Shown here in pieces: positions 5,936 to 64,000 of a stretch of 64,000 bases of DNA. The DNA lies in assembly GCF_041381155.1 (NCBI RefSeq), contig NC_091145.1:38579882-38643881 (forward strand), given 5' to 3'. Position 1 is the first letter of the stretch, and each line of letters starts with the position of its first letter. Origin of the DNA: Argopecten irradians. Its lineage: Eukaryota; Mollusca; Bivalvia; Pectinida; Pectinidae. The position numbers and the translations under genes are program-made. The notes below the pieces were generated by a model that did no database searches, was not told the origin of the DNA, and saw only the letters and a program-made list of their open reading frames with translations.

Positions 5936-6096
5936 ATAGTGAGCAAAGAACCTCTAATACTGAAAAGTGCTCACAAGCATAACACGTACAGGTAAACCAA
6001 AACAGAGAACAACGGGAGAGTGGAGGGATGGAAAGGTGTGTATTTTTTCAATCAACCTGTCTTTTTGTTCGAGGTTAAGAAGCATGCAGTAAGTCA

Positions 6097-6190: not shown

Positions 6191-6199
6191 CTTTACACA

Positions 6200-6985: not shown

Positions 6986-6988
6986 AAG

Positions 6989-7081: not shown

Positions 7082-7139
7082 CTTATCTCCATCACACATA
7101 TAGTGCCACCAACCATTAGAGTGAAACGACAATCAAATC

Positions 7140-7611
7140 ACGCAGATGGATGTTTTTGCGAGTATGTGTACAATCGTATACGTACTGCTAAGTAATCGCT
7201 TTATTCCGTTATGTAGTTAGTGATAATTCTGAGAAAAGATTTAAGTACTATTTTCCAACGCTCTATCAGTCATATAATATACAGTGGTTGGCATTACAGC
7301 TCTTCCAACGAAATACCAGCGTTAAATTATGGTTTACCAACATGATTGCTTCCTATATATATATCATAAATACATTGATTAAGGAGTAATACTGGTAGGT
7401 CCTATTCATTTCACGTTCTTCCTCCAAAGGTGAGCAGGCCCAATCAGGAATCATAGCTCTGGTAACTTTTGGTAGTTTACTAGCTTCCAGTAGGTTTTTT
7501 TTCGTCATGGCAAGTACTGTGTCTGATGACCAAACTCTTACCACCTTTGTATCCAGCAAACTCCACCTACCTACTTAAATAGTAGTAGTGATTTAAGGTG
7601 TCCGGACATCC
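7140..7611. other. No gene recognised
   Basis: Intergenic AT-rich DNA between the hairpin and the 17-kb array. The only long open frame (7353-7559, minus) has no recognisable features. Confidence 0.5.
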
Positions 7612-19600: not shown

Positions 19601-22600
19601 GGAAGTCAAAAGGAAGTCTATCAAATAGAGAAGGAAGTCAAAAGGAAGTCTATCAAATAGAGAAGGAAGTCAAAAGGAAGTCTATCAAATAGAGAAGGAA
19701 GTCTATCAAATAGAGAAGGAAGTCAAAAGGAAGTCTAGCAAATAGAGAAGGAAGTCAAAAGGAAGTCTATCAAATAGAGAAGGAAGTCTATCAAATAGAG
19801 AAGGAAGTCAAAAGGAAGTCTAGCAAATAGAGAAGGAAGTCAAAAGGAAGTCTATCAAATAGAGAAGGAAGTCAAAAGGAAGTCTAGCAAATAGAGAAGG
19901 AAGTCAAAAGGAAGTCTAGCAAATAGAGAAGGAAGTCAAAAGGAAGTCTATCAAATAGAGAAGGAAGTCAAAAGGAAGTCTATCAAATAGAGAAGGAAGT
20001 CTATCAAATAGAGAAGGAAGTCAAAAGGAAGTCTATCAAATAGAGAAGGAAGTCAAAAGGAAGTCTATCAAATAGAGAAGGAAGTCAAAAGGAAGTCTAT
20101 CAAATAGAGAAGGAAGACAAAAGGAAGTCTATCAAATAGAGAAGGAAGTCTATCAAATAGAGAAGGAAGTCAAAAGGAAGTCTAGCAAATAGAGAAGGAA
20201 GTCAAAAGGAAGTCTAGCAAATAGAGAAGGAAGTCAAAAGGAAGTCTAGCAAATAGAGAAGGAAGTCAAAAGGAAGTCTATCAAATAGAGAAGGAAGTCA
20301 AAAGGAAGTCTAGCAAATAGAGAAGGAAGTCAAAAGGAAGTCTAGCAAATAGAGAAGGAAGTCAAAAGGAAGTCTATCAAATAGAGAAGGAAGTCAAAAG
20401 GAAGTCTAGCAAATAGAGAAGGAAGTCAAAAGGAAGTCTATCAAATAGAGAAGGAAGTCAAAAGGAAGTCTATCAAATAGAGAAGGAAGTCAAAAGGAAG
20501 TCTATCAAATAGAGAAGGAAGTCAAAAGGAAGTCTATCAAATAGAGAAGGAAGACAAAAGGAAGTCTATCAAATAGAGAAGGAAGTCAAAAGGAAGTCTA
20601 TCAAATAGAGAAGGAAGTCAAAAGGAAGTCTAGCAAATAGAGAAGGAAGTCTATCAAATAGAGAAGGAAGTCTATCAAATAGAGAAGGAAGTCAAAAGGA
20701 AGTCTATCAAATAGAGAAGGAAGTCTATCAAATAGAGAAGGAAGTCAAAAGGAAGTCTATCAAATAGAGAAGGAAGTCTATCAAATAGAGAAGGAAGTCA
20801 AAAGGAAGTCTATCAAATAGAGAAGGAAGTCTATCAAGTAGAGAAGGAAGTCAAAAGGAAGTCTATCAAATAGAGAAGGAAGTCAAAAGGAAGTCTATCA
20901 AATAGAGAAGGAAGTCAAAAGGAAGTCTATCAAATAGAGAAGGAAGTCAAAAGGAAGTCTAGCAAATAGAGAAGGAAGTCAAAAGGAAGTCTAGCAAATA
21001 GAGAAGGAAGTCAAAAGGAAGTCTAGCAAATAGAGAAGGAAGTTAAAAGGAAGTCTAGCAAATAGAGAAGGAAGTTAAAAGGAAGTCTATCAAATAGAGA
21101 AGGAAGTCAAAAGGAAGTCTATCAAATAGAGAAGGAAGTCAAAAGGAAGTCTAGCAAATAGAGAAGGAAGTCAAAAGGAAGTCTATCAAATAGAGAAGGA
21201 AGTCAAAAGGAAGTCTAGCAAATAGAGAAGGAAGTCAAAAGGAAGTCTAGCAAATAGAGAAGGAAGTCAAAAGGAAGTCTAGCAAATAGAGAAGGAAGTC
21301 AAAAGGAAGTCTATCAAATAGAGAAGGAAGTCAAAAGGAAGTCTAGCAAATAGAGAAGGAAGTCAAAAGGAAGTCTATCAAATAGAGAAGGAAGTCAAAA
21401 GGAAGTCTATCAAATAGAGAAGGAAGTCAAAAGGAAGTCTATCAAATAGAGAAGGAAGTCAAAAGGAAGTCTAGCAAATAGAGAAGGAAGTCAAAAGGAA
21501 GTCTATCAAATAGAGAAGGAAGTCAAAAGGAAGTCTATCAAATAGAGAAGGAAGTCAAAAGGAAGTCTAGCAAATAGAGAAGGAAGTCAAAAGGAAGTCT
21601 ATCAAATAGAGAAGGAAGTCAAAAGGAAGTCTATCAAATAGAGAAGGAAGTCAAAAGGAAGTCTATCAAATAGAGAAGGAAGTCAAAAGGAAGTCTATCA
21701 AATAGAGAAGGAAGTCAAAAGGAAGTCTATCAAATAGAGAAGGAAGTCAAAAGGAAGTCTATCAAATAGAGAAGGAAGTCAAAAGGAAGTCTAGCAAATA
21801 GAGAAGGAAGTCAAAAGGAAGTCTATCAAATAGAGAAGGAAGTCAAAAGGAAGTCTATCAAATAGAGAAGGAAGTCAAAAGGAAGTCTATCAAATAGAGA
21901 AGGAAGTCAAAAGGAAGTCTAGCAAATAGAGAAGGAAGTCAAAAGGAAGTCTAGCAAATAGAGAAGGAAGTCAAAAGGAAGTCTATCAAATAGAGAAGGA
22001 AGTCAAAAGGAAGTCTATCAAATAGAGAAGGAAGTCAAAAGGAAGTCTAGCAAATAGAGAAGGAAGTCAAAAGGAAGTCTATCAAATAGAGAAGGAAGTC
22101 AAAAGGAAGTCTATCAAATAGAGAAGGAAGTCAAAAGGAAGTCTATCAAATAGAGAAGGAAGTCTATCAAATAGAGAAGGAAGTCAAAAGGAAGTCTATC
22201 AAATAGAGAAGGAAGTCAAAAGGAAGTCTATCAAATAGAGAAGGAAGTCTATCAAATAGAGAAGGAAGTCTATCAAATAGAGAAGGAAGTCAAAAGGAAG
22301 TCTATCAAATAGAGAAGGAAGTCAAAAGGAAGTCTAGCAAATAGAGAAGGAAGTCAAAAGGAAGTCTATCAAATAGAGAAGGAAGTCAAAAGGAAGTCTA
22401 GCAAATAGAGAAGGAAGTCTATCAAATAGAGAAGGAAGTCTATCAAATAGAGAAGGAAGTCTATCAAATAGAGAAGGAAGTCTATCAAATAGAGAAGGAA
22501 GTCAAAAGGAAGTCTAGCAAATAGAGAAGGAAGTCAAAAGGAAGTCTATCAAATAGAGAAGGAAGTCAAAAGGAAGTCTATCAAATAGAGAAGGAAGTCA

Positions 22601-24775
22601 AAAGGAAGTCTATCAAATAGAGAAGGAAGTCTATCAAATAGAGAAGGAAGTCAAAAGGAAGTCTATCAAATAGAGAAGGAAGTCTATCAAATAGAGAAGG
22701 AAGTCTATCAAATAGAGAAGGAAGTCAAAAGGAAGTCTATCAAATAGAGAAGGAAGTCAAAAGGAAGTCTATCAAATAGAGAAGGAAGTCAAAAGGAAGT
22801 CTATCAAATAGAGAAGGAAGTCAAAAGGAAGTCTAGCAAATAGAGAAGGAAGTCAAAAGGAAGTCTATCAAATAGAGAAGGAAGTCAAAAGGAAGTCTAG
22901 CAAATAGAGAAGGAAGTCAAAAGGAAGTCTAGCAAATAGAGAAGGAAGTCAAAAGGAAGTCTATCAAATAGAGAAGTCTAGCAAATAGAGAAGGAAGTTT
23001 AGTCAAAAGGAAGTCTATCAAATAGAGAAGGAAGTCAAAAGGAAGTCTATCAAATAGAGAAGGAAGTCAAAAGGAAGTCTATCAAATAGAGAAGGAAGTC
23101 AAAAGGAAGTCTAGCAAATAGAGAAGGAAGTATCAATAGAGAAGGAAGTCAAAAGGAAGTCTAGCAAATAGAGAAGGAAGTCAAAAGGAAGTCTATCAAA
23201 TAGAGAAGGAAGTCTATCAAATAGAGAAGGAAGTCAAAAGGAAGTCTAGCAAATAGAGAAGGAAGTCAAAAGGAAGTCTAGCAAATAGAGAAGGAAGTCA
23301 AAAGGAAGTCTAGCAAATAGAGAAGGAAGTCAAAAGGAAGTCTATCAAATAGAGAAGGAAGTCAAAAGGAAGTCTATCAAATAGAGAAGGAAGTCAAAAG
23401 GAAGTCTAGCAAATAGAGAAGGAAGTCAAAAGGAAGTCTATCAAATAGAGAAGGAAGTCAAAAGGAAGTCTAGCAAATAGAGAAGGAAGTCAAAAGGAAG
23501 TCTATCAAATAGAGAAGGAAGTCAAAAGGAAGTCTATCAAATAGAGAAGGAAGTCTATCAAATAGAGAAGGAAGTAAAAGGAAGTCTATCAAATAGAGAA
23601 GGAAGTCAAAAGGAAGTCTATCAAATAGAGAAGGAAGTCAAAAGGAAGTCTATCAAATAGAGAAGGAAGTCAAAAGGAAGTCTATCAAATAGAGAAGGAA
23701 GTCAAAAGGAAGTCTAGTCAAATAGAGAAGGAAGTCAAAAGGAAGTCTATCAAATAGAGAAGGAAGTCAAAAGGAAGTCTATCAAATAGAGAAGGAAGTC
23801 AAAAGGAAGTCTATCAAATAGAGAAGGAAGTCAAAAGGAAGTCTATCAAATAGAGAAGGAAGTAGGAGTATCAAATAGAGAAGGAAGTCAAAAGGAAGTC
23901 TATCAAATAGAGAAGGAAGTCAAAAGGAAGTCTATCAAATAGAGAAGGAAGTCAAAAGGAAGTCTATCAAATAGAGAAGGAAGTCTATCAAATAGAGAAG
24001 GAAGTCAAAAGGAAGTCTATCAAATAGAGAAGGAAGTCAAAAGGAAGTCTAGCAAATAGAGAAGGAAGTCAAAAGGAAGTCTAGCAAATAAGAAGGAAGT
24101 TATCAAATAGAGAAGGAAGTCAAAGGAAGTCTATCAAATAGAGAAGGAAGTCAAAAGGAAGTCTATCAAATAGAGAAGGAAGTCAAAAGGAAGTCTAGCA
24201 AATAGAGAAGGAAGTCAAAAGGAAGTCTATCAAATAGAGAAGGAAGTCAAAAGGAAGTCTATCAAATAGAGAAGGAAGTCAAAAGGAAGTCTATCAAATA
24301 GAGAAGGGAAGTCTTCAAATAGAGAAGGAAGTCAAAAGGAAGTCTATCAAATAGAGAAGGAAGTCAAAAGGAAGTCTATCAAATAGAGAAGGAAGTCAAA
24401 AGGAAGTCTATCAAATAGAGAAGGAAGTCAAAAGGAAGTCTATCAAATAGAGAAGGAAGTCAAAAGGAAGTCATAGCAAATAGAGAAGGAAGTCAAAAGG
24501 AAGTCTAGCAAATAGAGAAGGAAGTCTATCAAATAGAGAAGGAAGTCAAAAGGAAGTCTATCAAATAGAGAAGGAAGTCAAAAGGAAGTCTATCAAATAG
24601 AGAAGGAAGTTTATCAAGTAGAGAAGGAAGTTAAAAGGAAGTCTATCAAATAGAGAAGGAAGTCAAAAGGAAGTCTAGCAAATAGAGAAGGAAGTCAAAA
24701 GGAAGTCTAGCAAATAGAGAAGGAAGTCTATCAAATAGAGAAGGAAGTCAAAACGATGTCTATCAAATAGAAAAC
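7612..24775. repeat. 17-kb minisatellite/satellite array (32-bp and 21-bp units)
   Basis: The basic 32-bp unit is made of GAAGGAAGTC, AAAAGGAAGTC and TATCAAATAGA. A 21-bp short form lacks the middle 11 bp, so GGAAGTC occurs twice in the long unit and once in the short one. By length I estimate about 550 units. A point variant (CTAGC instead of CTATC) is common and clustered, e.g. a near-unbroken run at 16,320-16,800. The plus strand is about three-quarters purine. Every frame meets TAG or TGA quickly, so there is no coding potential. Broken units cluster near 9,420, 10,010-10,150, 10,620, 13,780-13,870, 14,640-14,800, 16,960, 17,760-17,880 and 22,970-23,130. The array ends by degeneration at 24,750-24,775. 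Confidence 0.98.
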
Positions 24776-42000: not shown

Positions 42001-45000
42001 TATTAGACTGTTTTAGCTGTGTGCTATAGTTTTGGTGGTACTATACTCGAGCTGTGTGCTTACAAAGGAGCTGTATGCTTAGCAACAGTATTGTGAAGTT
42101 AGAAGAGAGCTGTGCATGCTCAAAAACAAGTATTTAGAAGCTGTGTGCATGCTCAAAAACAAGTATTTAGAAGCTGTGTGCTAGAAAGCTATGTGCTATG
42201 AAGAGGGCTGAGTGCTCATGAAGCTATGTGCTAAAGGGGAGAGCTGTTTGCTCATAAACTGTATTTTGAAGCTGTTTGCTCAGAAAGCTGTGTGCTATGA
42301 AGAGGGATGCGTGCTCATAAAGCTGTGTGCAAAAGGGGAGAGCTGTGTGCTCATAAACTGTATTTAGAAGCTGTGTGCTCATAAACTGTATTTAGAAGCT
42401 GTATGCTCAGAAAGCTGTGTGCTATGAAGAGGGCTGCATGCTCACGAAACTGTGTGTAAAAGGGGAGAGCTATGTGCTCATAAACTGTATTTAGAAGCTG
42501 TGTGCTCATAAACTGTATTTAGAAGCGGTGTGCTCATAAACTGTATTTAGAAGCGGTGTGCTCAGAAAGCTGTGTGCTATGAAGAGGGCTACGTGCTCAT
42601 GAAGCTGTGTGCTAAAGGGGAGAGCTGTGTGCTCATAAACTGTATTTAGAAGCTGTGTGCTCAGAACGCTGTGTGCTATGAAGAGGGCTGTGTGCTCATG
42701 AAGCTGTGTGCTAAAGGGGAGAGCTTTGTGCTCATAAATTGTATTTAGAAGCTGTGTGCTCATAAACTGTATTTAGAAGCTGTATGCTTAGAAAGCTGTG
42801 TGCTATGAAGAGGGCTGTGTGCTCATGAAGCTGTGTGCTAAAGGGGAGAGCTGTGTGCTCATAAACTGTATTTAGAAGCGGTGTGCTCAGAACGCTGTGT
42901 GCTATGAAGAGGGCTGTGTGCTCATGAAGCTGTGTGCTAAAGGGGAGAGCTGTGTGCTCATAAACTGTATTTAGAAGCTGTGTGCTCATAAACTGTATTT
43001 AGAAGCTGTGTGCTCAGAAAACTGTGTGCTATGAAGAGGGCTGTGTGCTCATGAAGCTGTGTGCTAAAGAGGAGAGCTGTGTGCTCAAGAAGACTATAAA
43101 TAGACCTTAAATCCTTTACGTTATTTCGACTGAAGTTCAGGATAGCTTGTGACTATTGTCTATTGTTACCTGTGGAACAGTCGATCCAAGGCATAGTGAC
43201 ATTGTGTAATATCAACAAGGAAATGTGCTAGGAGACTGATAGTGCTTACGTGGGAATTGAAACCTTCCTATGAAGTTTATGGCTACATGTGTATATAGTA
43301 TATTTAGGGTATTTACAGGTTGTATTTTGTATTGGGTTATATATTTAGGATTAAATATGAGTGAGATTGTTTGTGCGTATAGGTTGACAGGGCAGTGTGT
43401 GTATTTACAAACATGTATTTTTGTATACATATTGTATATTTGAATAATTGTTAATTTATTTTGTAATGTGTTGTGGAATCTATTCACCTGCTAATGGCCA
43501 ATACCCATGAATCCATTATAAAATATTTCGAGTGAGCACTTTCTAACAAGAAGTATCATGGCGGTCAAGTGAGCCGTGTCAGAGAGGTGAGCCATTGAAT
43601 TGTGAAACATAATTTAGACATGGAGGTTGATAAATAAATAATAAGTTTAGGTTAGAACTGTTTGATATTGTTGAATTTAATTACAACTTCACTTGACATA
43701 TATGAAATATATCATTTTCACAACTGGATGTTTTGAAACACTGCAGTCAACAGAACAGAATCGTAGCTCTGACGACGACCATTTGTCTGAAATCATCTGT
43801 CCGTTGTTCAGAGCTACATCATCGCAGCTACTATAAGGGGAGATCATTCACATGACAATGCTGTGCAAGTTTTTGACTATAAGGGGAGATAACTCAAATG
43901 ACAAAACTGTGCAAGGTTTTGACAATGTGGGAACAAAGGTCACTCATCTCATATGATTTATGATGTTAATTGTTTTAGTGTATATACCATAGTTGCTGTG
44001 GTCTCTTTCATTGTTTCAATCTGTTTGACACCGTCAGGTTGGGCATTATACCGGTACAAACATGCATTCCGCGTGTGTTTCCGGTTGTGTAATTGTTATA
44101 GCGGCTATCGTTTGTATCCTTGGGCACCCAGGGGGAGATACCTCTCCTACCAGGCACTCACAACAGTTGCCACAGATTGCTGATAACAGCACAAGTACCT
44201 ATGTATGTATTTGAATTAGGACACTTAAGGTGTTGGACGTAATTAAGGGAGTGGAGCTGTTGTGACGTTAGCTGGCGGGAAAAGGAAGGGGGTATTGGTC
44301 AATAGCTATAGGCTAGCTCTCAGCAGGAACAAGTGGGGGGTAATATTATCATTAGGTACTCTCTGTAAACTTCTATGCTCTATACTTACTTCATTTTTGT
44401 TTACCTGTATATTATCTGTTACATAGTAGAGTAAATCTCCGCTTAACTTAATACAATGTGTTCGTTGACATGTAGTAATTGCTCCGCCACATCCTTATGA
44501 ACTTGTGATTGAGCTGTCTGTAATCAGCTCAGCGTGTGTGCATGTCTCTACTTTCTTTACTTTTACTATTATAAGACAATGGAATTTCCTCCCTGTAGCA
44601 GCAGTACAATGCACTGCACTTGAGGACTTCAAGGCACATATTTCCAACGTAGCCCTTGAAGTCCCCATGCACTAGTTCTGCAAACACCTTTTATCTTATA
44701 TACTTAAAATTTTTTTTAAAAATCACAAATTTAATCCCTTCACATCCTTGCACCCCTACAGATCACATGACGAAATCGTCATTTTTGACAGAGTCATGCA
44801 AGAAGAAGAAAGGATTCGTCTGCTGATTGGTGCCGGGGTATTGTATCAAAACTATATGATCACAACTTTAAAAATTGACATTTCCTTGACGCTGGTCATG
44901 GGAGTGGGGACGTGCTATTACAACTGTAGCGGTGACCAGGTAGCTCAGCGGTAGAGCATTCGGCTAGTGTTCGTAGGGTCCCGTGTTCGAATCCCAAATT

Positions 45001-46264
45001 GACATTTCCTTGACGCTGGTCATGGGAGTGGGGACGTGCTAGCCTATTACAACTGTAGCGGTGACCAGGTAGCTCAGCGGTAGAGCATTTGGCTAGTGTT
45101 CGGAGGGTCCCGTGTTCGAATCACAGTCTGGCCGCTATATGTTATCCTTTACACAACAGGGGAGATAACTCTCACGATGTTTAAAATATCTAAATTCATA
45201 ATCGTTGAGTAAACAACCTACACTGATATATACAATAGCGTAAATGCCACGTCTAGGACTTGTCAATTGCAATGCACAGCAAACTTGTATACAAGAAACG
45301 CTAGCTGCTGGTTCCCTGTTAATCCCTATTGAGATTCCTCCTCTAGACTCTTTTATATTCGGACGTCTGATAGATGTCTCTCGTCGGAATCCCTACTCGG
45401 GCCTTCTAAACTTTATTCTGGAAAATCAAGTCAGGTTGACCTACCTCTTGTAAGGGTCTATTACAGAAATAATCCAACTGCAGTGGTTCCCATACTAGCA
45501 CACATCGCTAGTGGAGATATTTTTCTCTCCATACGCACATATATTATTTAGTGACACATATTAAAAACAAAGAACCATCCCATATTGTAAACAATGTTAT
45601 GTTCCATTGCTACTTTGAGCAGCCATTTTGAAAGTCCCTCTCTGTCATGTGACCACTATAGTCTGTTTCAATAAAATTCATTACCTGTATAACCTTATTC
45701 CATTCAGTGTAATAGGCATTATCTGGAACGCACTATAGTGGTCATGTGACAGCGAGGGACTTTCAAAATGGCTGCTCAAAGTAGCGATAGAACAAGACAT
45801 CATTTGCAAAATGAGATGGTTCTTTGTTTTCAATACATGTCACTTCATAATATATGTGCGTTTTGAGAGAAAAATATCTCCACTATCGATGTGTGCCAGT
45901 GTGGGAACCACTGCAGTTGGATTATTTCTGTAATAGACCCTTACAAGAGGTAGGTCAACCTGACTTGATTTTCCAGAATAAAGTTTAGAAGGCCCGAGTA
46001 GGGATTCCGACGAGAGACATCTATCAGACGTCCGAATATAAAAGAGTCTAGAGGAGGAATCTCAATAGGGATTAGTTCCCTGTTAGCATCTTGCATGGTG
46101 TATCGCTGTTGCATGCGCGATAAACAAATAATTTTACTAAGAATAGTTAAGTTGCGTTTTACATACGCTATTAATTGAACGTCTTCGGGCTCTGCTTCAA
46201 AGCTTTCGTCGGAGAACCACGACGCTACCAATGATTTTGATGCATCATCTACTTCGAGTTCCAT
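29995..46264 (-). CDS. Lysine-rich protein gene, about ten coding exons (unrecognised family)
   Basis: Joined exons, in transcript order: 46264-46167, 41335-41139, 40341-40122, 39291-39065, 38316-38022, 37219-37029, 36437-36209, 32539-32197, 31057-30971, 30048-29995. They total 1,941 nt, about 646 residues. All internal exons have AG/GT borders and compatible phases (2,1,2,1,2,1,2,0,0). The product is Lys/Glu/Ser-rich, with many basic clusters that could be nuclear or nucleolar localisation signals, and acidic Ser stretches. A helical motif of the type LxxKLxxxxLSxxxRKxxrKKIxxLK occurs in exons 3, 5 and 7. I do not recognise the family; a nucleolar or chromatin role is a guess from composition. 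Exons 2-8 are strongly supported. The link to exon 1 and the last two exons are predictions. A longer gene with missed small exons is possible. Confidence 0.75.
30158..30202 (-). mobile_element. HINE 3'-terminal fragment
   Basis: Read on the minus strand this matches the last ~45 bp of the HINE copies at 49,107, 50,104 and 59,541: ATCATTCTTTGG, GGCGCC, an AGAT..CTCTGGGATCT hairpin and CTTGT. Only the 3' end is present. It abuts the 61-bp array directly. Confidence 0.75.
30204..30992. repeat. 61-bp tandem array spanning the exon 9 splice donor
   Basis: Thirteen TTACCA-anchored units lie 61 bp apart (first near 30,235, last at 30,967). Each contains ACACCAACATTTGTACACC, CCTTCTCTCATCCCC and TTACCATATGATCAGG. 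On the minus strand each unit holds the last bases of exon 9 (CCTGATCATATG) followed by GTAAGG, a donor consensus. The array runs from inside exon 9 down to the HINE fragment. Confidence 0.95.
30971..31057 (-). CDS. Lysine-rich gene, exon 9
   Basis: The acceptor TTTTAAACAG is upstream of 31,057. The exon has 29 codons in phase 0 (KLKDGHIRKRVKKRSKQK... RPDHM), a highly basic composition matching the rest of the protein, and the donor ATG/GTAAGG at 30,970. The frame is exactly the one left by exon 8. The last ~21 nt of this exon are the source-like copy of the 61-bp repeat. Confidence 0.7.
31070..32190. other. Intron 8 of the lysine-rich gene
   Basis: AT-rich, no second gene recognised. Short open frames at 31,097 and 32,038 (plus) have no support. 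Confidence 0.5.
32197..32539 (-). CDS. Lysine-rich gene, exon 8
   Basis: Acceptor ATTTTACAG before 32,539; donor AAG/GTAGTG at 32,196. It begins by completing a Ser codon from exon 7 (phase 2) and ends in phase 0. The first half is KTKK/AESKTKK-type repeats (four imperfect copies of about 12 residues). The second half is acidic (EEGSEDDEDV... DESEEDS). This alternating basic/acidic-Ser pattern is seen in nucleolar phosphoproteins, but no specific homologue is recognised. Confidence 0.88.
32850..35955. repeat. 47-bp minisatellite inside intron 7
   Basis: About 66 units by length. The consensus contains TACTGCCAATTATCAATG, TTTTACAATAATGTGATAC and TTATAATATC. It is very uniform, with recurrent point variants (CTGCTGCC, CGACTGTC, AATATTGTG, GATATTTAT). 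It fills about 85% of the intron between exons 7 and 8 (32,540-36,208). The right end decays at about 35,930-35,955. No open frames of note. Confidence 0.97.
36209..36437 (-). CDS. Lysine-rich gene, exon 7
   Basis: Acceptor TTTTCACAG before 36,437; donor AG/GTAAAG at 36,208. Phase 1 in, phase 2 out. It encodes a basic stretch (SPSKSKKKSKVQKGD) followed by the third copy of the helical motif: VEERLNHFQQRLEEGGLS then KKRIRRAISKLKADR. It pairs with exon 6 as a two-exon module. Confidence 0.9.
36948..37022. repeat. Intronic 32-bp duplication next to the exon 6 donor
   Basis: TTAGGACTGACTAATTGCC plus TAGCACCACCA is present twice, with a further partial copy, starting about eight bases into the intron on the minus strand. 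It does not include the donor itself. Confidence 0.7.
37029..37219 (-). CDS. Lysine-rich gene, exon 6
   Basis: Acceptor TTTATTCCAAG before 37,219; donor CAG/GTAACA at 37,028. Phase 2 in, phase 1 out. Product: EGKPSPKVVSNQNVD..., an acidic serine run (TSSSDDSSDSDV), then SLLDKLKMINSPLLVK. Less lysine-rich than its neighbours, but the frame and phase fit exactly. The plus-strand open frame over this exon is its shadow. Confidence 0.85.
37324..37729. mobile_element. pogo/Tigger-like MITE
   Basis: Terminal inverted repeats CAGTGGAACTTAGTT (left) and AACTGAGTTCCACTG (right) differ by one base, and both are flanked by TA (37,322-37,323 and 37,730-37,731). The CAGTGGAAC start and TA target site are typical of pogo/Tigger members of the Tc1/mariner superfamily. 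At 406 bp with no transposase it is non-autonomous. It sits in the intron between exons 5 and 6. Confidence 0.75.
38022..38316 (-). CDS. Lysine-rich gene, exon 5
   Basis: Acceptor GTTACATAG before 38,316; donor ACT/GTAAGT at 38,021. Phase 1 in, phase 2 out. Product: KKLKEKQKKQLKTD..., an acidic DESDEDD segment, then the second copy of the helical motif, IATLEQKLKVTTSRSTRKN followed by IRKKIIALKAG. It pairs with exon 4 as a module. Confidence 0.9.
38575..38750 (-). mobile_element. tRNA-derived SINE
   Basis: On the minus strand the head carries an A-box-like TGGCCGAGTCATTAAG and a B-box-like GGGAGTTCAAATCCCA with a long variable region, resembling a class II tRNA (Leu/Ser type). Downstream is TTTCTCTGGGTACTCTGG, a central segment shared by several metazoan SINE superfamilies. 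It lies in the intron between exons 4 and 5, in the gene's sense orientation. Confidence 0.7.
38785..38913. repeat. Possible MITE with TTTCTC/GAAATCG ends
   Basis: CCTCGATTTCTCAAAAAA at the left is roughly inverted at the right (TTTCACGAAATCGGGGC). AT-rich interior. Weak, based only on the ends. Confidence 0.35.
39065..39291 (-). CDS. Lysine-rich gene, exon 4
   Basis: Acceptor TTTCCCTAG before 39,291; donor AAG/GTAAAA at 39,064. Phase 2 in, phase 1 out. Nearly pure Lys/Glu/Asn/Asp/Ser: KKAEKDNSETKEKKKNEGK... ending HSEKKKDKK. Likely disordered or helical, highly charged. First exon of the second two-exon module. Confidence 0.88.
39300..40115. other. Intron 3 of the lysine-rich gene
   Basis: AT-rich. 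One minus-strand copy of the dispersed GGGGAGATTACT motif is at 39,681-39,694. No other feature recognised. Confidence 0.5.
40122..40341 (-). CDS. Lysine-rich gene, exon 3
   Basis: Acceptor TTTTTTTTCAG before 40,341; donor GA/GTAAGT at 40,121. Phase 1 in, phase 2 out. Product: ETEGKFTGMKKKSLSTGD..., then the first copy of the helical motif, VESLQQKLQDNTLSNTARKK followed by LKKKLNILLS. Second exon of the first module. Confidence 0.9.
40345..41130. other. Intron 2 of the lysine-rich gene
   Basis: AT-rich sequence with no recognised feature. Confidence 0.5.
41139..41335 (-). CDS. Lysine-rich gene, exon 2
   Basis: Acceptor TATCATGCAG before 41,335; donor AAG/GTATGT at 41,138. Phase 2 in, phase 1 out. 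Product: KKKKKEKSDKTASSAAKEKK, then VKQSISGLESAKNLSSVSS and MEEKLKKKLKKSK. Its opening phase matches exon 1 at 46,264-46,167. Confidence 0.82.
41515..41606. repeat. 31-bp tandem repeat, 3 copies
   Basis: AATTATATACATGTACACAA plus CACAATAC repeated three times with almost no divergence. Confidence 0.9.
41603..41732 (+). CDS. Possible terminal exon or retrocopy fragment
   Basis: Directly after the 31-bp repeat, an open frame reads VQRSSRYALFFEEKSIQ then HLLDESQELLEAEELQ, ending at TAA (41,730-41,732) with AATAAA a few bases later. The composition is protein-like and helical, and a CACAATACAG acceptor-like sequence precedes it. No family is recognised. It is antisense to intron 1 of the lysine-rich gene and could equally be a retroposed fragment. 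Confidence 0.25.
42030..43095. repeat. GCTGTGTGCT-based higher-order tandem array
   Basis: Subunits built on GCTGTGTGCTCATAAACTG, TATTTAGAA, CTATGAAGAGGGCT and CTAAAGGGGAGA alternate in blocks of about 100-150 bp. The left end is more degenerate than the right. Open frames on the minus strand come from the repeat. Confidence 0.92.
43831..43925. repeat. 47-bp duplication carrying GGGGAGATAAC
   Basis: CTATAAGGGGAGAT, CA(A/T)ATGACAA and CTGTGCAAG-TTTTGAC occur twice in succession with several substitutions. Confidence 0.7.
44547..44675 (+). pseudogene. LINE ORF2 C-terminal fragment
   Basis: Reads STFFTFTIIRQWNFLPVAAV, then TALEDFKAHIS, then a stop at 44,673-44,675. The R-x-WN-x-LP ... L-x-x-FK pattern is characteristic of the extreme C-terminus of Jockey/CR1-type LINE reverse transcriptases. 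Only this fragment is present. Confidence 0.5.
44934..44995 (+). pseudogene. Truncated tRNA-like copy 1
   Basis: Same head as copy 2 (D arm, anticodon arm with AGT, B-box GTTCGAATCC), but the 3' side of the T stem and acceptor is replaced by the duplication junction, so it cannot fold fully. Confidence 0.75.
45063..45134 (+). tRNA. tRNA-like sequence, anticodon AGT (Thr); gene or SINE head
   Basis: It folds as a 72-nt cloverleaf. The acceptor GACCAGG/TCTGGCC has six of seven pairs (one G.U, one A-C mismatch). The D stem is GCTC/GAGC. The anticodon stem TTTGG/TCGGA relies on three G.U pairs. The loop CTAGTGT gives anticodon AGT. The T stem CCGTG/CACAG has four of five pairs around TTCGAAT. 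The A box TAGCTCAGCGG and B box GTTCGAATC are good. The mismatches and duplicated context favour a tRNA-derived repeat or pseudogene over a functional tRNA-Thr. Confidence 0.55.
45320..46074. mobile_element. Foldback element with ~350-bp inverted arms and 9-bp target duplication (MULE-like)
   Basis: The left arm (45,320-~45,665) and right arm (~45,730-46,074) are inverted copies with modest divergence, starting TAATCCCTATTGAG and separated by about 65-75 bp. The 9-mer GTTCCCTGT flanks both ends in direct orientation (45,311-45,319 and 46,075-46,083). Long terminal inverted repeats with 9-bp duplications are typical of Mutator-like (MULE) elements. No transposase is present. The same short open frame appears in both arms because of the inversion. 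It lies in intron 1 of the lysine-rich gene, about 90 bp from exon 1. Confidence 0.85.
46167..46264 (-). CDS. Lysine-rich gene, predicted first coding exon
   Basis: ATG at 46,264 in good context (CAACATGG). It reads MELEVDDASKSLVASWFSD then ESFEAEPEDVQLI, followed by donor GC/GTATGT at 46,166 (phase 2), which matches the phase needed by exon 2. It is acidic and distinct from the K-rich body. Without splicing the frame runs on into the foldback element, which argues that the donor is used. The direct link to exon 2 is inferred. Confidence 0.55.
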
Positions 46265-54920: not shown

Positions 54921-57900
54921 AGATCTAGAGATGTAAGTGGTGGGTTGACCTACGCCACATCATGACGGACACCAACTTCAAAGTTGCCCTGCTGGTCAGT
55001 ATCAAGGATAGGGATATTCTACCCGAGGGTCACAAAATGTTATAAAACCTGAAGCTTGCCAAAGGTTCTACTACATTTTGTGACCCTGAGGGTAAAATAT
55101 CCCTATCCTTCATAATCACATAAGAAAGAGTATTTGTCTCTCATACCTCAATGTTTTATTGCAATTTTACTTCTATTTTTTTCTGCCATTTTGAATTAAA
55201 TTTAAAAAAAAACACGACTGCAAGTCTATTTTCCATACATGAAAATTGTGTGAAATTTTCAACGCAAATTCTGTTGGTTTTAACTTCTAGAGCAAATCCA
55301 GCCTAGCTTCTGAAAAGAATTATACCCAGAACATAGTTATTTTATTAACGCTATGATGTCACAAGGCTTTGTTGCATGGGTAGCCATGCAATACAGCCTC
55401 AGGCGGCATGAGTGTATTACCCTAGTATTTTACGTGTAGGTATGGGGAAAATACATTTAAGAATTTTTGTAAGATGTTTTGGCAGTTAGAGACGTTTGTA
55501 AACAAAACAATGTTATTATATCATATTCTTTAAAAAGTGTACGTATGATTCTTTATTTTTAGGTCGCCTGAGACGATGTCTCAAGTGACCTATTCTAATC
55601 GCCTTTTGTCTGTCGTTGTCTGTCCGTCGTCGTCTGTCGTCCGTCGTCCGTCATATGGTGATAAACAATTTACTTTTTCGACTTCTTCTCCAAAACTACT
55701 GAACCAAATTTGTTGAAATTTTGCAAAAACCTTTCATAGCCAAAGGTCAACCAAAATTTTGAATTATATGGTCCCAGCCCCCCAGGGGCCTGAGGGGTGG
55801 GGCCAAAAGGGGTCAAATAGGCTAAAACTTCATAAATCTTCTTCTGAAATTCCAGAAATGGCAGAATCAAATACTCTTCATAGATTGAAAGGTCTTAAGG
55901 TCCATTACAAATATTGTGAATTATATGACCCTGGGGTCTCGCGTTCCCCCCTGGGGAGGGGGTCAAGTTTACTATAGTTTATATGTATAGGGAAAACACA
56001 TTTTTGAGCATTATCTGGTCATTTGAAATAGGAAATAAGTCAAATGTTGTCAAAATTATCAGTATGAGATGGCCATTGAATCCTATTAACAATTGTTCCA
56101 CGACTGACCCCCAGGAGCCTGAGAGGTGGGGCCAAAAGGGGTCAAATAGGCTGAAACTTTAAAAATCTTCTTCTGAAATTCCAGAAATGGCAGAATCAAA
56201 TACTCTTCATAGATTGAAAGGTCTTGAGGTCCTTTACAAAAATTGTGAATTATATGACCCTGGGGTCTCGTGTTTCCCCCTGGGGAGGGGGTCAAGTTTA
56301 CTATAGTTTATATAGGAAAAGCACATTTATGAACGTTATTTTCTTACTTTTCATAGGAAATTAGTCAAACTGATTTAGAATTTTTAGCCTGAGATAGCAT
56401 TTTATCTTCATATCCATATTTGTCCTGGCCGACCCCCAGGGGCCTTAGGGGCAGGGCCAAAAGGGGTCAAATAGGCTAAAACTTCAAAAATCTTCTTCTG
56501 AATTCACAGATTTGATGGAACCAGATACTCTTCATAGATTGGAAGGTCTTAAGGCCCTTTACAAAAAATAGTGAATTTCATGGCCATGGGATCTCATATT
56601 TTTCCCTGGGGAGGAGGTCAAATTTACTTTAGTTTATATGGGAAAAACAAATTTATGAACATTATTTGCTTTGTTTTCATAGGAAATTAGTCAATCTGGG
56701 TTAGAATTATTAGCCTGAGAAAGCATTTTAACATCATATCCATATTGGTCCTGGCCGACCACCAAGGGCCAGAGGGGCGGAGCCAAAAGGGGTCAAATTG
56801 GCAAACTTTTCAAAAATCTTCTGAATTCACAGATCGATGGAACCAAATACTCTTCATGGATTGAAGATAGTTTTGATTAAGGCCCTTTACAAAATGTTTG
56901 AATTTCATGGCTCTGGGATCTCAGATTTTCCCCTGGGGAGGGAGTAAAATTTACTATAGTTTATATAGGAAAAACACAGTTATGAATATTATTTGCTTAG
57001 TTTTAACAGGAAATGAGTCAAACTGGGTTAGAATTATTAGCCTGATCGAAATAGCATTTAACACCATATTCATATTGGTCCTGGCTGACCCCCAGGGACC
57101 AGAGGGGCGTGGCCAAAATGGGTCAAAATGGCTAAAATTTCAAAAATCTTCCTCTGAATTCACAGGTATGATGGAATCAAATAATCTTCATAGATTAAAA
57201 AGTGAAATTTATAAAATCACTGACACTGACTGACTTCTAGTTTGGTTTTGTTGTTTAACGTTGGCAAAGCAAATTGGAATTTTAAGCATAACGTTTGGTA
57301 ACATAATAAACTAACTATCAAAATGAAAAAAACAAAAAATAAAAATTCTAATACGAAGGTTCAAACTTTAATGTTTATTCTAATACGTACATACTTTTTA
57401 CAGATTTGAACCAACTTTGCAATGCTCTTTCTGTATCAGCTCTCAGGTGACCGTCAAGGCCTCTTGGGCCTCTTGTATTACTTTTATTATGCCTCACAAG
57501 TATAAACAATATACATGTACATAATTATGTACTTTGTTACGGATAAAGTTTAGTTTATAGCTATGACACAGTAACACTGACTGTTTTACTGTTGTGTATC
57601 TTGTTGACAGTATAATAATCTAATAATTTTATCTGTCTTATTATGAAGAACTCTGAGAGAAATGATGTTATGATTTATTCTTCTATTTTAATGAAGCTTT
57701 ATGTTTCTGTGACAAATCAGGGAGCATAAAAATCTCCAAAAGAAACACAGACTGGTCCTGACATCTTCTCCTTTTCTCATTTTCCATATATCTCCCATAG
57801 TATACCTCCATTCATTAATTTAAAGGGACATGAACCTAAATAAGTCGCACTGGGTTTTGGGGAAGTCCAAGGCAGGCGCTTTTGTGTTTGTGCACTGACC

Positions 57901-60900
57901 TTGACGTTTGGCGACGACTGATTTTCCTTTGATATCCGCCGGCGCAGCCTTTGATGTAGCTTGTAGGTGGAGGGTTACCGTCTTACTTTCTGAAGCGGGG
58001 CCGTCATTTCATGAGCTGTCGATCTTTTTTAACGAAAATTTAAGACATATCCTCTAAATATTCCGTCTTTAAAGCAAGTTATATACGTTGTGAAATTTAA
58101 TAAACTTTACATTGGTGTTTCGTTTGACTCGATAAGACAAGTATTTGTTGAGAAAAACGGTTTTTATTCCCGGTTCATAGGCGTCTCGCGTGGTGTTTAG
58201 TAATGTAAAGAGATAGTCACGAATCCTTCTCACTTATAAATCCTTGATATTTAAGACGTGTCAGATACCTTACTAAGTAATATATATCAGTTATTGTGCA
58301 AATGTGTCAAATTAAACAATTATAATGGAAATTCATCTTTCTGTATTTTGAACCGGCCCGGTCAAATTTTGTAGCTGAGTGTGATAAAAAAAGTAGTGTT
58401 TAACTTTAGTGACCACCCACAATGCACTGCACAAATTAAATTAACGTAAACAAAATGGTGGGTCAAAAACGTGAGTGAAGCGAACACAAACGAATTCCGA
58501 TAGAAAACAGTACATAAAGAGTCAGTAATGTGTGCGATTGGGGAAGTAGGTAAATATGAATGGATCGCTGAAATGCAAGAGACGGAAGCAACTTCCCACT
58601 TTATACTTGCGTGATGTATATATGTGTAATAAGTCAAGAACCTCCCTTAGCGGTGCCCAGTCGAATGAAAAGTCTTGTTTGACTTTGGACTTATCGCTCT
58701 TACGCTAAATGCAAATTGTTTTATAACAAATATTAAGAAATATGGCTTAAACTTTTTTTGTCAACCATCGTAAATTACAAAATAATCTTAAAATGTGGAA
58801 AACTAATATTCCTTGTCATGTTACCAAGTTTGATGTTCATTATAACCTCGCTTTTGGCCAGCTTTTGTTTTGTGTTCCAAAAATAGAATATGACGGTCTA
58901 TATAAATTTTATCATTTTTGTGGTAGGTATTCCCCATGTTTTCCTGTCGTTTTAGATAACCAATCATTGTAATAAAATATCCAATAAACATCTGAAAACC
59001 ATATCTAAGCATACAGAACAATTTATTTAAGGTTCATGTCCCTTTAAAGGTGAAGTAGTTCTAATGGATATTGATTCGAACTTTTTAATATATACCAGTC
59101 TGGGGCAGCAGCTGGCATTTCCGTCGACCTGTCACTGTTTCCATTGGATACCATCAAGACACGCCTACAAAGTCAACAAGGTTTTCTGAATTCTGGAGGT
59201 TTCAGAGGAATATATTCAGGCCTACTTCCGGTCGTGATTGGATCAGCCCCCACTGGTATGTTTAAAAACCTCATTATGAAATTATTAGTATGAGGGCAAG
59301 ATGAAGGATTGTGCTTCATTTTGTTCAAAGATAAGAATGGTAAGATGGTGTGTTAAAGATAAGAATCTTCATCAGATAACATTTGAAATATCTTTCATGG
59401 AAATTACAATAGTTCTAAGATGCGATATAAATCACACCTCATTATCCAAATGTTTGTTGCAATGTAGTGTCCATCAGTTCTGAATCATACAATGGACAGA
59501 TCGCCAGCTGTCAATCAAACCACACGTGGATTTGCTTTTTAGCCCACCATCATCAGATGGTGGGCTATTCAAATCGCCTTTCGTCCTTGGTCCGTCGTCC
59601 GTTCGTCGCCGCGTCCTTCCGTCCGTCCGTCCGTTAACAATTCTTGTTACCGCTATTTCTCAGAAAGTACTGAAGGGATCTTTCTCACATTTCATATGTA
59701 GGTTCCCCTAGGACCCTAGTTGTGCATATTGCATTTTGGGACCGATCGGTCAACAAGATGGCCGACAGTCGGCCATCTTGGATTTTGATAGTTGAAGTTT
59801 GTTACCACTATTTCTCAAAAAGTGCAGAAGGAATCTTTCTCAAATTTCATATACAGGTTCCCCTAGTACCCTAGTTGTGCATATTGCATTTTGGGACGGA
59901 TCGGTCAACAAGATGGCCGACAGGCGGCCATCTTGGATTTTGATAGTTAAAGTTTGTTACCGCTATTTCTCAAAAAGTGCTGAAGGGATCTTTCTCAAAT
60001 TTCATATATAGGTTCCCCTAGGGCCCTAGTTGTGCATATTGCATTTTGGGACCGATCGGTCAACAAGATGGCCGACAGGCGGCCATCTTGGATTTTGATA
60101 GTTGAAGTTTGTTACCGCTATTTCTCAAAAAGTGCTGAAGGGATCTTTCTCAAATTTCATATACAGGTTCCCCTATGACTCTTGTTGTGCATATTGCATT
60201 TTGGGACTGATCGGTCTACAAGATGGCCGACAGGCGGCCATCTTGGATTTTGATAGTTGAAGTTTGTTACCGCTATTTCTCAAAAAGTGCTGAAGGGATC
60301 TTTCTCAAATTTCATATATAGGTTCCCCTAGGACCCTAGTTGTGCATATTGCATTTTGGGACTGATCGGTCTACAAGATGGCCGACAGGTGGCCATCTTG
60401 GATTTTGATAGTTGAAGTTTGTTACCGCTATTTTTCAAAAAGTGCAGAAGGGATCTTTCTCAAATTTCATATACAGGTTCCCCTATGACTCTTGTTGTGT
60501 ATATTGCATTTTGGGACTGATCGGTCAACAAGATGGCCGACAGGCGGCCATCTTGGATTTTGATACTTGAAGTTTGTTATCGCTATTTCTTAGAAAGTAC
60601 TATAGCGATCTGTCTCAAATTTTATATATAGTGTGTTTGAAAAAGTTTGAAAAGCAGGGAAAAGATCCCTCTTTCCATTGTCAGACATAGATCATTCTTT
60701 GGTGGGCGCCAAGATCCCTCTGGGATCTCTTGTTGTATTGTGTATGCTACGATGTTTGCTCTAACATTGAATGGAAACATATGTGTATGCAAGCATGAGG
60801 CATGGCTACATATAGTGCCTGGCGATGGGTCAATTAATTGTTTAATGATGTGTTTGTAAATGACAGAAAAGTGAAGTAGAACCAACTATTTATAGCATTT

Positions 60901-61520
60901 TGTCTGACTTGTTCCTGAATTCGTCTGACAAGTTATTGAATTCGTCTGACAAGTTTCTGAATTTGTTTGCAGCTGCTTTGTTTTTCTGTACATATGAGGT
61001 GACAAAGACAATGATCAGGAGAACAATGGGCGAAAACTGGGCAACAGCCTCACACATGATGGGGGCCTCATTTGGGGAAGTTGTAAGTATGTAGAGACAT
61101 TATCACACATGATGGGGGCCTCATTTGGGGAAGTTGTAAGTATGTACACATGATGGGGGCCTCATTTGGGGAAGTTGTAAGTATGTAGAGACATTAATTG
61201 TCACACATGATGGGGGCCTCATTTGGGGAAGTTGTAAGTATGTACACATGAATGGGGCCTTTTCACACACAACACAAACATACTGCAGCCTCCAAAAACA
61301 TGCACACAATCAACACACAGCATACATTGGAGGGTTGTCCATCAATGACCTTTTAATGGGACGTTAATCTAATCAACCTTCTATGTTACATTAAGATTAA
61401 TTCTGTTTTTAACAGTCAGCCTGTCTTATCCGAGTACCGGTGGAGGTTATAAAGCAAAGAGCACAAGCCAACCCAAACCTGACGTCCAAGTCAATATTTA
61501 TCTCTACTCTAAAACAGGAG
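54921..61520 (+). CDS. SLC25A26: Mitochondrial S-adenosylmethionine carrier, first four coding exons (gene continues past the window)
   Basis: Coding segments 54962-54994, 59099-59255, 60973-61082 and 61416-61520 join in frame (phases 0, 1, 0) into 135 codons, about half of the ~270-residue family. The protein imports S-adenosylmethionine across the inner mitochondrial membrane in exchange for S-adenosylhomocysteine, supplying mitochondrial methylation. Two of the three carrier signatures P-x-[DE]-x-x-[KR]-x-[KR] are visible: PLDTIKTR at residues 26-33 and PVEVIKQR at 108-115. The segments [31 protein letters not shown] and [15 protein letters not shown] match the SLC25A26 subfamily rather than other carriers. 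Exon 1 is the least certain. Intron 1 holds a MITE, a HINE and a TTAA element; intron 2 holds a HINE; introns 3 and 4 start with arrays that duplicate the splice donor. The third carrier repeat must lie beyond 64,000. Confidence 0.92.
54931..54936 (+). promoter_or_regulatory. Start-stop upstream ORF and cryptic donor in the SLC25A26 5' UTR
   Basis: After a strong acceptor (TTTTTCAG at 54,913-54,920) the 5' UTR has ATG immediately followed by TAA, 31 nt before the main ATG, with a purine at -3. The same bases form GTAAGT (54,933-54,938), a strong donor-like sequence. The acceptor implies an upstream non-coding exon that I could not locate. Confidence 0.4.
54962..54994 (+). CDS. SLC25A26: SLC25A26 exon 1 coding part
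   Basis: ATG at 54,962 gives [11 protein letters not shown], then donor CTG/GTCAGT. Joined to exon 2 ([12 protein letters not shown]) it aligns without gaps to the short N-terminus and first helix typical of this carrier. The intron opens ten bases before a small foldback element. Confidence 0.72.
55004..55110. mobile_element. 107-bp foldback MITE in SLC25A26 intron 1
   Basis: About 37-nt arms (AAGGATAGGGATATTCTACC..., and its inverse ending CCCTATCCTT at 55,110) contain GAGGGTCACAAAATGT and its complement. A 32-nt spacer has its own small stem. No clear target duplication. It begins 10 nt after the exon 1 donor. Confidence 0.7.
55561..57476 (+). mobile_element. HINE-like element, second family
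   Basis: Same architecture as the 49.1-kb HINE with different sequence. The 5' GGTCGCCTGAGACGATGTCTC hairpin region is followed by ATTCTAATCGCC and a GTC(T/C)GTCC-rich stretch. The core has about four ~310-bp units (GGGGCCAAAAGGGGTCAAAT... CCCTGGGGAGG... TTTACTATAGTTTATAT). The 3' end has CTCAGGTGACC, inverted to the 5' GGTCGCCTGAG, then a GGCCTCTTGGGCC hairpin and CTTGT at 57,472-57,476. No coding capacity. Confidence 0.82.
57824..59043. mobile_element. 1.2-kb TTAA-flanked non-autonomous DNA transposon
   Basis: Inverted ends AGGGACATGAACC-TAAATAA (left) and TTATTTAAGGTTCATGTCCCT (right) are flanked by TTAA on both sides (57,820-57,823 and 59,044-59,047). TTAA targets are characteristic of piggyBac-type elements, though the ends do not start with the usual CCC. 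No transposase frame is seen. It ends only 55 bp before SLC25A26 exon 2. Confidence 0.75.
59099..59255 (+). CDS. SLC25A26: SLC25A26 exon 2
   Basis: Acceptor TATATACCAG; donor G/GTATGT at 59,256. Phase 0 in, phase 1 out. It contains the first carrier signature and the [19 protein letters not shown] region that leads into helix 2. The conserved acidic and basic residues of the signature are intact. Confidence 0.95.
59541..60733 (+). mobile_element. HINE, third copy, in SLC25A26 intron 2
   Basis: Complete element of the 49.1-kb family: 5' hairpin (59,541-59,566), CGTCC-rich zone, about six ~155-bp core units with AAGATGGCCGAC / GGCGGCCATCTTG, and 3' GGTGGGCGCC, AGATCCC..GGGATCT and CTTGT. It separates TTT from TGTATTGTG, and an uninterrupted relative of that junction exists at the 52.1-kb repeat. 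Confidence 0.87.
60733..60836 (+). repeat. Dispersed repeat, copy B
   Basis: Homologous in reverse orientation to 52,125-52,225. Reads [14 protein letters not shown]... HEAWLH in the shared frame. The HINE inserted at its left edge. Confidence 0.55.
60973..61082 (+). CDS. SLC25A26: SLC25A26 exon 3
   Basis: Acceptor TTTGTTTGCAG; donor GTT/GTAAGT at 61,083. Completes an Ala codon from exon 2, then [17 protein letters not shown]... GASFGEV, corresponding to helix 2, the matrix loop and the start of helix 3. Its last ~32 nt are the unit of the downstream array. Confidence 0.93.
61050..61255 (+). repeat. Tandem array duplicating the exon 3 end and its splice donor
   Basis: CACACATGATGGGGGCCTCA plus TTTGGGGAAGTT/GTAAGTATGTA is present four times, with donors at 61,083, 61,136, 61,177 and 61,234, and a fifth broken copy. 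Spacings of 53, 41 and 57 bp differ by linker length (with or without GAGACATTA). Exon-derived and intron-derived parts are both nearly identical between copies. Confidence 0.95.
61416..61520 (+). CDS. SLC25A26: SLC25A26 exon 4
   Basis: Acceptor TTTTTAACAG; donor GAG/GTGAGT. 35 codons in phase 0: [20 protein letters not shown]... ISTLKQE. It contains the second carrier signature. The next residues in the family (a G-x-x-GLYRGY segment) must come from an exon beyond the window. Confidence 0.94.
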
Positions 61521-62140
61521 GTGAGTACTGGGCTTTGGGTCCTCAAGTGGAGAAACCAACCCAAACCTGAGGTCCAAATCAATATTTATCTCTACTATAA
61601 AACAGGAGGTGAGTACCAGGCTCTGAGCCCTCGAGTTGAGAAACCAACCCAAACCTGACGTCAATACCTATCTCTACTCTAAAACAGGAGGTGAGTATCA
61701 GGCTCTAGGCCTCCAGTAGAGAAACAAACCCAAACCTGATGTCAATACCTATCTCTACTCTAAAACAGGAGGTGAGTACTGGGCTCTAGGCCCTCGATTT
61801 GAGAAACAAACCTGATGTCAATACTTATCTCTACTATAAAACAGGAGGTGACTACCGGGCTCTGGGCCCTCAAGTGGAGAAACCAACCCAAACCTGACGT
61901 CAATACTTATCTCTACTCTAAAACAGGAGGTGAGTATCAGGCTCTGGGCCTCCAGTGGAGAAACCAACCCAAACCTGACGTCAATACTTATCTCTACTCT
62001 AAAACAGGAGGTGAGTATCAGGCTCTGGGCCTCCAGTGGAGAAACCAACCCAAACCTGACGTCAATACTTATCTCTACTCTAAAACAGGAGGTGAGTATC
62101 GGGCTCTGGGCCCTCAAGTGGAGAAACCAACCCAAACCTG
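61468..62140 (+). repeat. Tandem array duplicating the exon 4 end and its splice donor
   Basis: Eight units of 76-88 bp. Each holds CAACCCAAACCTGACGTC, TATCTCTACTCTAAAACAG, GAG/GTGAGTA and an intron-derived tail (GGGCTCTGGGCCCTCAAGTG, GAGAAAC). Donors lie at 61,521, 61,609, 61,691, 61,772, 61,848 (GTGACT variant), 61,930, 62,011 and 62,092. Later units share an internal deletion relative to the exon, so they derive from one another. A partial ninth unit runs into the heptamer array. Confidence 0.95.
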
Positions 62141-64000
62141 TCGATTGTTTCATGTCTATTGTTGTTACATGTCAATTGTCTATTGTTACATGTCTATTGT
62201 CTATTGTTACATGTCTATTGTTACATGTCTATTGTTGTTACATGTCTATTGTCTATTGTTACATGTCTATTGTCTATTGTTATTGTTACATGTCTATTGT
62301 TACATGTCTATTGTTACATGTCTATTGTCTATTGTTACATGTCTATTGTTACATGTCTATTGTCTATTGTTACATGTCTATTGTCTATTGTTACATGTCT
62401 ATTGTCTATTGTTACATGTCTATTGTTTGTCTATTGTTACATGTCTATTGTTACATGTCTATTGTCTATTGTTACATGTCTATTGTTACATGTCTATTGT
62501 CTATTGTTGTCTGTCTATTGTTACATGTCTATTGTTACATGTCTATTGTCTATTGTTACATGTCTATTGTTACATGTCTATTGTTACATGTCTATTGTCT
62601 ATTGTTACATGTCTATTGTCTATTGTTACATGTCTATTGTCTATTGTTACATGTCTATTGTTGTCTATTGTTACATGTCTATTGTTACATGTCTATTGTC
62701 TATTGTTACATGTCTATTGTTACATTCTATTGTCTATGTTCATGTCTATTGTTACATGTCTATTGTCTATTGTTACATGTCTATTGTCTATTGTTACATG
62801 TCTATTGTTACATGTCTATTGTCTATTGTTACATGTCTATTGTTACATGTCTATTGTCTATTGTTACATGTCTATTGTCTATTGTTACATGTCTATTGTC
62901 TATTGTTACATGTCTATTGTCTATTGTTACATGTCTATTGTCTATTGTTACATGTCTATTGTTGTCTATTGTTACATGTCTGTTGTTGTCTATTGTTACA
63001 TGTCTATTGTTGTTTTTATGTTACATGTCTATTGTTATTTATGTCTATTGTTACATGTCTATTGTTTGTTACATGTCTATTGTTACATGTCTATTGTTAA
63101 TGTCTATTGTCTATGTTTCTATTGTCTATTGTTACATGTCTATTGTTACATGTCTATTGTTACATGTCTATTGTTACATGTCATTGTCTATTGTTACATG
63201 TCTATTGTCTATTGTTACATGTCTATTGTTACATGTCTATTGTTACATGTCTATTGTTACATGTCTACATGTCTATTGTTACATGTCTATTGTTACATGT
63301 CTACATGTCTATTGTTACATGTCTATTGTTGTCTATTGTTACATGTCTATTGTTACATGTCTATTGTTACATGTCTATTGTCTATTGTTACATGTCTATT
63401 GTTGTCTATTGTTACATGTCTATTGTTACATGTCTATTGTTACATGTCTATTGTCTAATGTTACATGTCTATTGTCTATTGTTACATGTCTATTGTTACA
63501 TGTCTATTGTTACATGTCATTGTCTATTGTTACATGTCTATTGTTTGTCTATTGTTACATGTTATTGTGTCTATTGTTACATGTCTATTGTTACATTGTC
63601 TATTGTTACATGTCTATTGTCTATTGTTACATGTCTATTGTTACATGTCTATTGTCTATTGTTACATGTCTATTGTCTATTGTTACATGTCTATTGTTGT
63701 CTATTGTTACATGTCTATTGTTACATGTCTATTGTCTATTGTTACATGTCTATTGTCTATTGTTACATGTCTATTGTTACATTGTCTAATGTTTTGTCTA
63801 TTGTTACATGTCTATTGTCTATTGTTACATGTCTATTGTTGTCTATTGTTACATGTCTATTGTTACATGTCTATTGTCTTGTTTGTTATTGTTACATGTC
63901 TATTGTTACATGTCTATTGTCTATTGTTACATGTCTTATTGTCTATTGTTACATGTCTATTGTTACATGTCTATGTTGTCTATTGTTACATGTCTATTTT
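62141..64000. repeat. Heptamer array (CTATTGT / TACATGT), continues past the window
   Basis: The array is built almost entirely from two 7-mers, CTATTGT (A) and TACATGT (B), in the orders BA and BAA, with occasional GTTGT or clipped units. Units of 14 and 21 bp lack plus-strand stops, so frames of 300-620 codons are open in all three frames. These encode CLLLHVY/SIVTCLL-type polymers and are artefacts. The array lies in the intron after SLC25A26 exon 4 and is cut by the window end. Confidence 0.96.

Follow-up and report, generated by a model that had tools for sequence, protein, structure and literature searches.

The window analysed here is a stretch of 64,000 nt from the scallop Argopecten irradians (C12:38579882-38643881 of an assembly of 846 Mb in 1508 contigs), and it contains the first four exons of SLC25A26 (Table 1). 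In protein comparison, exons 1-4 matched best the S-adenosylmethionine mitochondrial carrier of Pecten maximus (91% over 135 aa), with proteins from Ylistrum and Mizuhopecten coming next. The Pfam family PF00153 was found on these four exons, and a Pfam search with 38 aa alone gave no match. Exons 5-9 were taken from 30 kb of downstream DNA that starts at window position 61119. The gene is complete in the assembly, with 9 exons, 822 nt and 273 aa, and introns 1-8 measure 4104, 1717, 333, 4027, 276, 485, 2637 and 616 nt. The exon model is a prediction based on protein alignment and splice consensus. The predicted carrier shares 248 of its 273 residues with P. maximus, its top database matches are scallop SAMC proteins, and it represents a full-length mitochondrial carrier. 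In the alignment, the end of exon 4 (KQE) and the start of exon 5 (GFPGLF) are in the same register as in the scallop relatives. This gene model agrees with the preliminary description of the window, which was right about the identity of SLC25A26, exon 4, its frame and the arithmetic of the stop codons.

A search of the species' own genome returned a single set of closely matching SLC25A26 exons. The 414-aa protein P0122 was considered as a repeat-bearing isoform and rejected, as it is a different SAMC, non-scallop by sequence, with its own first half doubled. Upstream of the gene, units of the AAGGAAGTCTATCAAATAGAG type form a 17-kb array at window positions 7617-24728, in which the two strands are strongly asymmetric (GC skew about 0.47), and a 129-bp tandem pair at 44872-45135 overlaps a predicted tRNA-Thr(AGT) at 45063-45135. 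Elsewhere in the genome, proteasome exon matches fell into two sets separated by about 68 kb, at C3:33010675-33011760 and C3:33078680-33079767, with equal or nearly equal scores, representing either a recent duplication or a retained haplotype.

Table 1. Exons, arrays and splice-related signals of SLC25A26 in window numbering
Feature	Position	Strand	Remark
SLC25A26 exon 1, coding part from ATG	54962..54994	+	aligned with scallop SAMC proteins
SLC25A26 exon 2	59099..59255	+	gene model
SLC25A26 exon 3	60973..61082	+	gene model
Exon 3 'mirage', four units with the final 31-33 nt of exon 3 and GTAAGTATGT	61050..61260	+	
SLC25A26 exon 4, 105 nt, phase 0/0	61416..61520	+	gene model
Exon 4 'mirage', eight units of 76-88 bp, each with the final 53 nt of exon 4 and its 5' splice site	61468..62138	+	
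Donor 1 GTGAGT	61521..61526	+	sole 273-aa source by simple joining to exon 5
TGA met by donors 3-8	61656..61658	+	
Donor 5, changed to GTGACT	61848..61853	+	
3' array of intron 4, TGTCTATTGTTACA units	62139..64000, on to 3' splice site 65547/65548	+	

The eight tandem copies of the exon 4 end and its 5' splice site that had been reported from first inspection are present base for base. The duplicated exonic part, estimated at about 53 nt, is indeed 53 nt long and begins with CCAACCC at 61468. The donors start at 61521, 61609, 61691, 61772, 61848, 61930, 62011 and 62092, corresponding to a spacing of 88, 82, 81, 76, 82, 81 and 81 nt. Between positions -3 and +6, seven of the eight read GAGGTGAGT and the fifth reads GAGGTGACT; seven copies have GAG/GTGAGT and the fifth has GAG/GTGACT. 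The TRF score for 61416-62140 was 1047, compared with at most 40 in 100 shuffles. In unit-to-unit comparison, identity ranges from 76 to 100%, and this divergence speaks against a trivial assembly stutter. Unit 6 is identical to unit 7 and unit 3 is 95% like both, as may be seen in a homogenising cluster, and a loss of 6 nt is common to units 3-8 and not found in units 1 and 2. At the left edge, units 1 and 2 are 76-85% like units 3-8, and the inner unit 4 is equally distinct (76-85% to all others); unit 8 at the right edge is 93% like units 5-7. Inspection of the units also confirmed that each has a pyrimidine-rich run ahead of AAAACAG/GAG. The DNA of the array had one genomic match, with scoring restricted to the best candidates and common words skipped. 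In its anatomy, with a unit that spans the exon-intron boundary and copies that carry splice signals, the array corresponds to the 'mirages' known from amphioxus.

Of the eight donors, donor 1 alone would yield the full 273-aa carrier when joined simply to exon 5. Donor 2 would give a product of 203 aa with a stop codon 183 nt before the last junction, and donors 3-8 a product of 180 aa that ends at the TGA, 334-735 nt before the last junction. Reading of the frame thereby bore out two earlier claims, namely that use of donor 2 lengthens the exon by 88 nt with a frameshift and that donors 3-8 run into the TGA at 61656-61658. The further claim that only the first donor gives a normal carrier is valid for simple joining to exon 5, but splicing from donor 1 to the AAAACAG/GAG of any of units 2-8 would add 3 nt in frame (KQE-E-GF), and this path would give a near-normal carrier. 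As a description of the anatomy, the term 'multi-donor competition substrate' used for the array is appropriate. The earlier account left out the further arrays of SLC25A26, those at other SLC25-family exons and the published name for this kind of repeat.

A second array, absent from the earlier account of exon 4, is located at the end of exon 3. It likewise has a boundary-spanning unit and splice signals in its copies, with GTAAGT at all four donors (61083, 61136, 61177 and 61234). Donors 2-4 of exon 3 would reach a TAG at 61092 and produce 103 aa, with the stop 448-546 nt ahead of the last exon junction. The 50-nt rule is the usual criterion for NMD, and by this rule the ten extra donors, three at exon 3 and seven at exon 4, are predicted to be of NMD type.

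Intron 4 extends from 61521 to 65547 (window numbering continued) and comprises 4027 nt, of which the first 618 nt are donor array and the remaining 3409 nt are TGTCTATTGTTACA units. The last unit of this 3' array reads TTGTTACAG/GGG, while elsewhere TTGTTACATG occurs 142 times and TTGTTACAAG five times; the single CAG in the array is the splice site. Only seven AG dinucleotides are present, compared with 95 expected from base composition, and we do not take this scarcity as selection because the unit itself is AG-poor. Exact matching of a 30-base pattern from the 3' array gave 33 hits in the genome, all of them within intron 4. This led us to reject a dispersed satellite, with the limitation that diverged copies would escape such a search. 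Since the exon 4 array was found at one place and the 3' pattern is confined to intron 4, both look like local growths, and intron 4 seems to be the product of two local amplifications that each built up one of its ends.

To place these arrays in the context of the gene family, PF00153 was searched in the genome, which returned at least 83 matches (150 of 167 candidates scored). We examined 77 of these, none of them in SLC25A26; the six others were SLC25A26 exon 2, two matches in L010 and three in one open frame of 315 aa. Matches were flagged if a direct repeat of 20 nt or more, with at least 75% identity, lay within 2 kb, which was the case for 10 of the 77. By reading, a copied splice junction was found at eight of the 77 matches, with exon borders placed by frame and consensus; as 15 matches had just 106-132 nt of flanking sequence, some copies may be missed. 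At L019, the exon-end donor is copied in 67-bp units, with GTAAGT at 41 places (5044-7849). The donor of L047 is present in three copies before the sequence examined ends, the third being GTAAGA, and that of L054 in two, the second without GT. Acceptors are copied at L020 (two copies, with one exonic base), L029 (four copies), L037 (two copies), L044 (two copies, with the junction matched by eye over 18 nt) and L045 (three copies including the first exon bases, one of them without AG). Because the flagged repeat of L044 stops short of the junction, a strict count gives seven of 77. The other two flagged cases are an intronic array at L038 and, at L037, a diverged copy of the exon end at a distance of 310 nt.

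Tandem repeats account for 17.5% of the bases in 20 long SLC25 loci, two of which overlap, compared with 55% of the window. In the long loci, repeats span two of 92 match edges (one more touches) and none of 48 match centres (two counted twice), compared with 133 of 600 random positions chosen 300 nt or more from matches (nine more touch). The difference between edges and random positions is significant (Fisher p 3e-7), with the reservation that match edges only approximate exon edges, so that the count for edges may be too low. Around the SLC25 genes examined, tandem duplication is common, but it is scarce in and at exons. Duplication targeted to splice sites was rejected on these numbers, which point to background duplication that is tolerated by splicing rather than to a targeted device. 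With two of eight donors and one of eight acceptors in arrays, SLC25A26 is far above the sampled edges, but this gene was chosen for its array. Mirages would be the apparent survivors of this duplication at the margin.

Array anatomy, an intact gene and a premature stop for each of donors 2-8 can be read directly from the DNA. In our view, the exon 4 array is probably a mirage minisatellite that originated from local duplication and is tolerated since donor 1 still defines the exon. By chance, a local tandem duplication would have begun 53 nt inside exon 4 and ended in the intron, and ordinary minisatellite slippage or unequal exchange would have expanded it to eight units. The array may persist because the exon-proximal donor 1 still defines exon 4, which would leave the protein unchanged, and any use of donors 2-8 would presumably lead to NMD. 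Intron 4 may have grown by amplification at both ends, at the 3' end by amplification of its own pyrimidine-rich tract without AG. Reports that splicing is undisturbed by amphioxus mirages were counted in favour of a tolerated array. In reporter experiments, downstream donors of identical sequence frequently compete strongly, so that use of the first donor is not guaranteed. Most likely, the array has no function beyond tolerated leakage.

A regulatory role would require a steady leak of SLC25A26 transcripts from the donor array into NMD, with the number of copies adjusting how much mitochondrial SAM carrier is present. Such a poison extension would fit with the observation that every extra donor, three at exon 3 and seven at exon 4, gives a stop well ahead of the last junction, and with the identity of seven of the eight exon 4 donors over -3 to +6. 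The donor core AAAACAGGAGGTGAGTA has one change in eight units over 17 columns, but constraint on it was rejected, as a column shuffle gave p 0.06 for that block and 0.68 for any block of the same size. Considering also that junctions are copied on the donor and acceptor sides alike in other SLC25 genes and that repeats are depleted at match edges, we regard a regulatory role as unlikely. Errors in assembly could have resulted in a wrong array length, given that a window with 55% tandem repeat is hard to assemble. However, except for units 6 and 7, the units differ by substitutions and indels, there is no N in the 30 kb from 61119, the flanking exons are intact on both sides and kindred arrays exist at other loci, which makes an artefact very improbable.

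The sequence GTGAGT...AAAACAG/GAG of each unit constitutes a would-be intron of 73-85 nt, with CTGA 29-35 nt ahead of the AG. If these were nascent introns and splicing hopped along the units, each hop would add one Glu (KQE(E)nGF), always in frame. All seven single hops from donor 1 are in frame and create no new stop, and an origin of introns by tandem duplication is already in print. The would-be acceptors have 10-11 pyrimidines in 16 positions and lie inside the range of the eight real acceptors of the gene (9-13 of 16), so that they cannot be dismissed on that count. On the other hand, AAAA directly before CAG makes a poor pyrimidine tract, and an extra residue is not present in 12 aligned relatives (11 molluscs and one fish), none of which has been shown to have the array. 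A 3-nt exon is also too short for ordinary exon definition, which leaves stepwise splicing as the sole route, and overall we consider hopping improbable. In stepwise splicing, transcripts from a downstream donor would be trimmed a second time, with donor 1 joined to the AAAACAG of the unit concerned, so that only one extra GAG is left, and intron 4 would consist wholly of copies of its two ends. The repeat would then correct itself, since acceptor, 3 nt and donor are present in frame in every unit, but we give this scheme equally little credence.

As a tolerated mirage, the exon 4 array belongs to a known kind, whereas its host is new as far as the literature was searched and the double-ended intron is unusual. 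The way in which the spliceosome selects one of several near-identical donors in a real gene has usually been approached through minigenes. The carrier-gene exons of this scallop genome provide a natural donor-copy series with three or more (L047), four and eight (SLC25A26) and 41 copies (L019), and the copied acceptors at other SLC25 exons add to it. Since each array has a coding read-out, position rules and leakage could be counted from ordinary RNA-seq. Intron 4 additionally provides an example of an intron built wholly from arrays at both ends.

No mollusc case of a mirage was found in the literature searched, with most subscription papers lying outside, and the accessible portions of one earthworm and one scallop paper describe no such arrays. 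In the human gene IFI6 (6-16), a minisatellite with a unit of 12 bp reportedly gives multiple splice donors, as is said to have been described by Turri et al. in 1995. The scallop array resembles it at the sequence level in that a minisatellite supplies several splice donors; the unit of IFI6 is shorter and its donors are reportedly in the transcript, whereas those of the scallop are known from sequence only. In humans, variable minisatellites at exon-intron boundaries were described among internal tandem repeats that alter gene structure (PMC2812944, available part). They share their position at the boundary with the scallop minisatellite but occur in primate segmental duplicates, whereas scallop SLC25A26 shows one closely matching exon set. 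Intron gain by tandem duplication, as outlined in PMC4974935, similarly involves a tandem copy that holds a donor and an acceptor-like AG, but the downstream copies in the scallop lie in the intron instead of coding sequence and their splice signals are predicted.

The closest relatives are the amphioxus mirages of Adh3, the globins BflGb6 and BflGb9, TnC and PGBD5, as far as covered by the accessible text of two papers (PMC3087553, PMC3902484). Their units measure 10-160 bp and lie at the boundary on one or the other side of exons, and many copies include splice signals (PMC3087553). They were reported not to disturb splicing, with normal splicing suggested by RT-PCR (PMC3087553, PMC3902484); the second paper adds PGBD5 and cites the Adh and TnC mirages as being without aberrant mRNA (PMC3902484). 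Like these, the scallop arrays are minisatellite-like tandem copies of an exon-intron boundary, with units of 76-88 bp at exon 4. Unlike the amphioxus cases in the text consulted, they reside in a mollusc, affect two successive exons as well as both ends of one intron and are known here from genomic DNA alone. Thereby, they extend mirages from lancelets to a mollusc.
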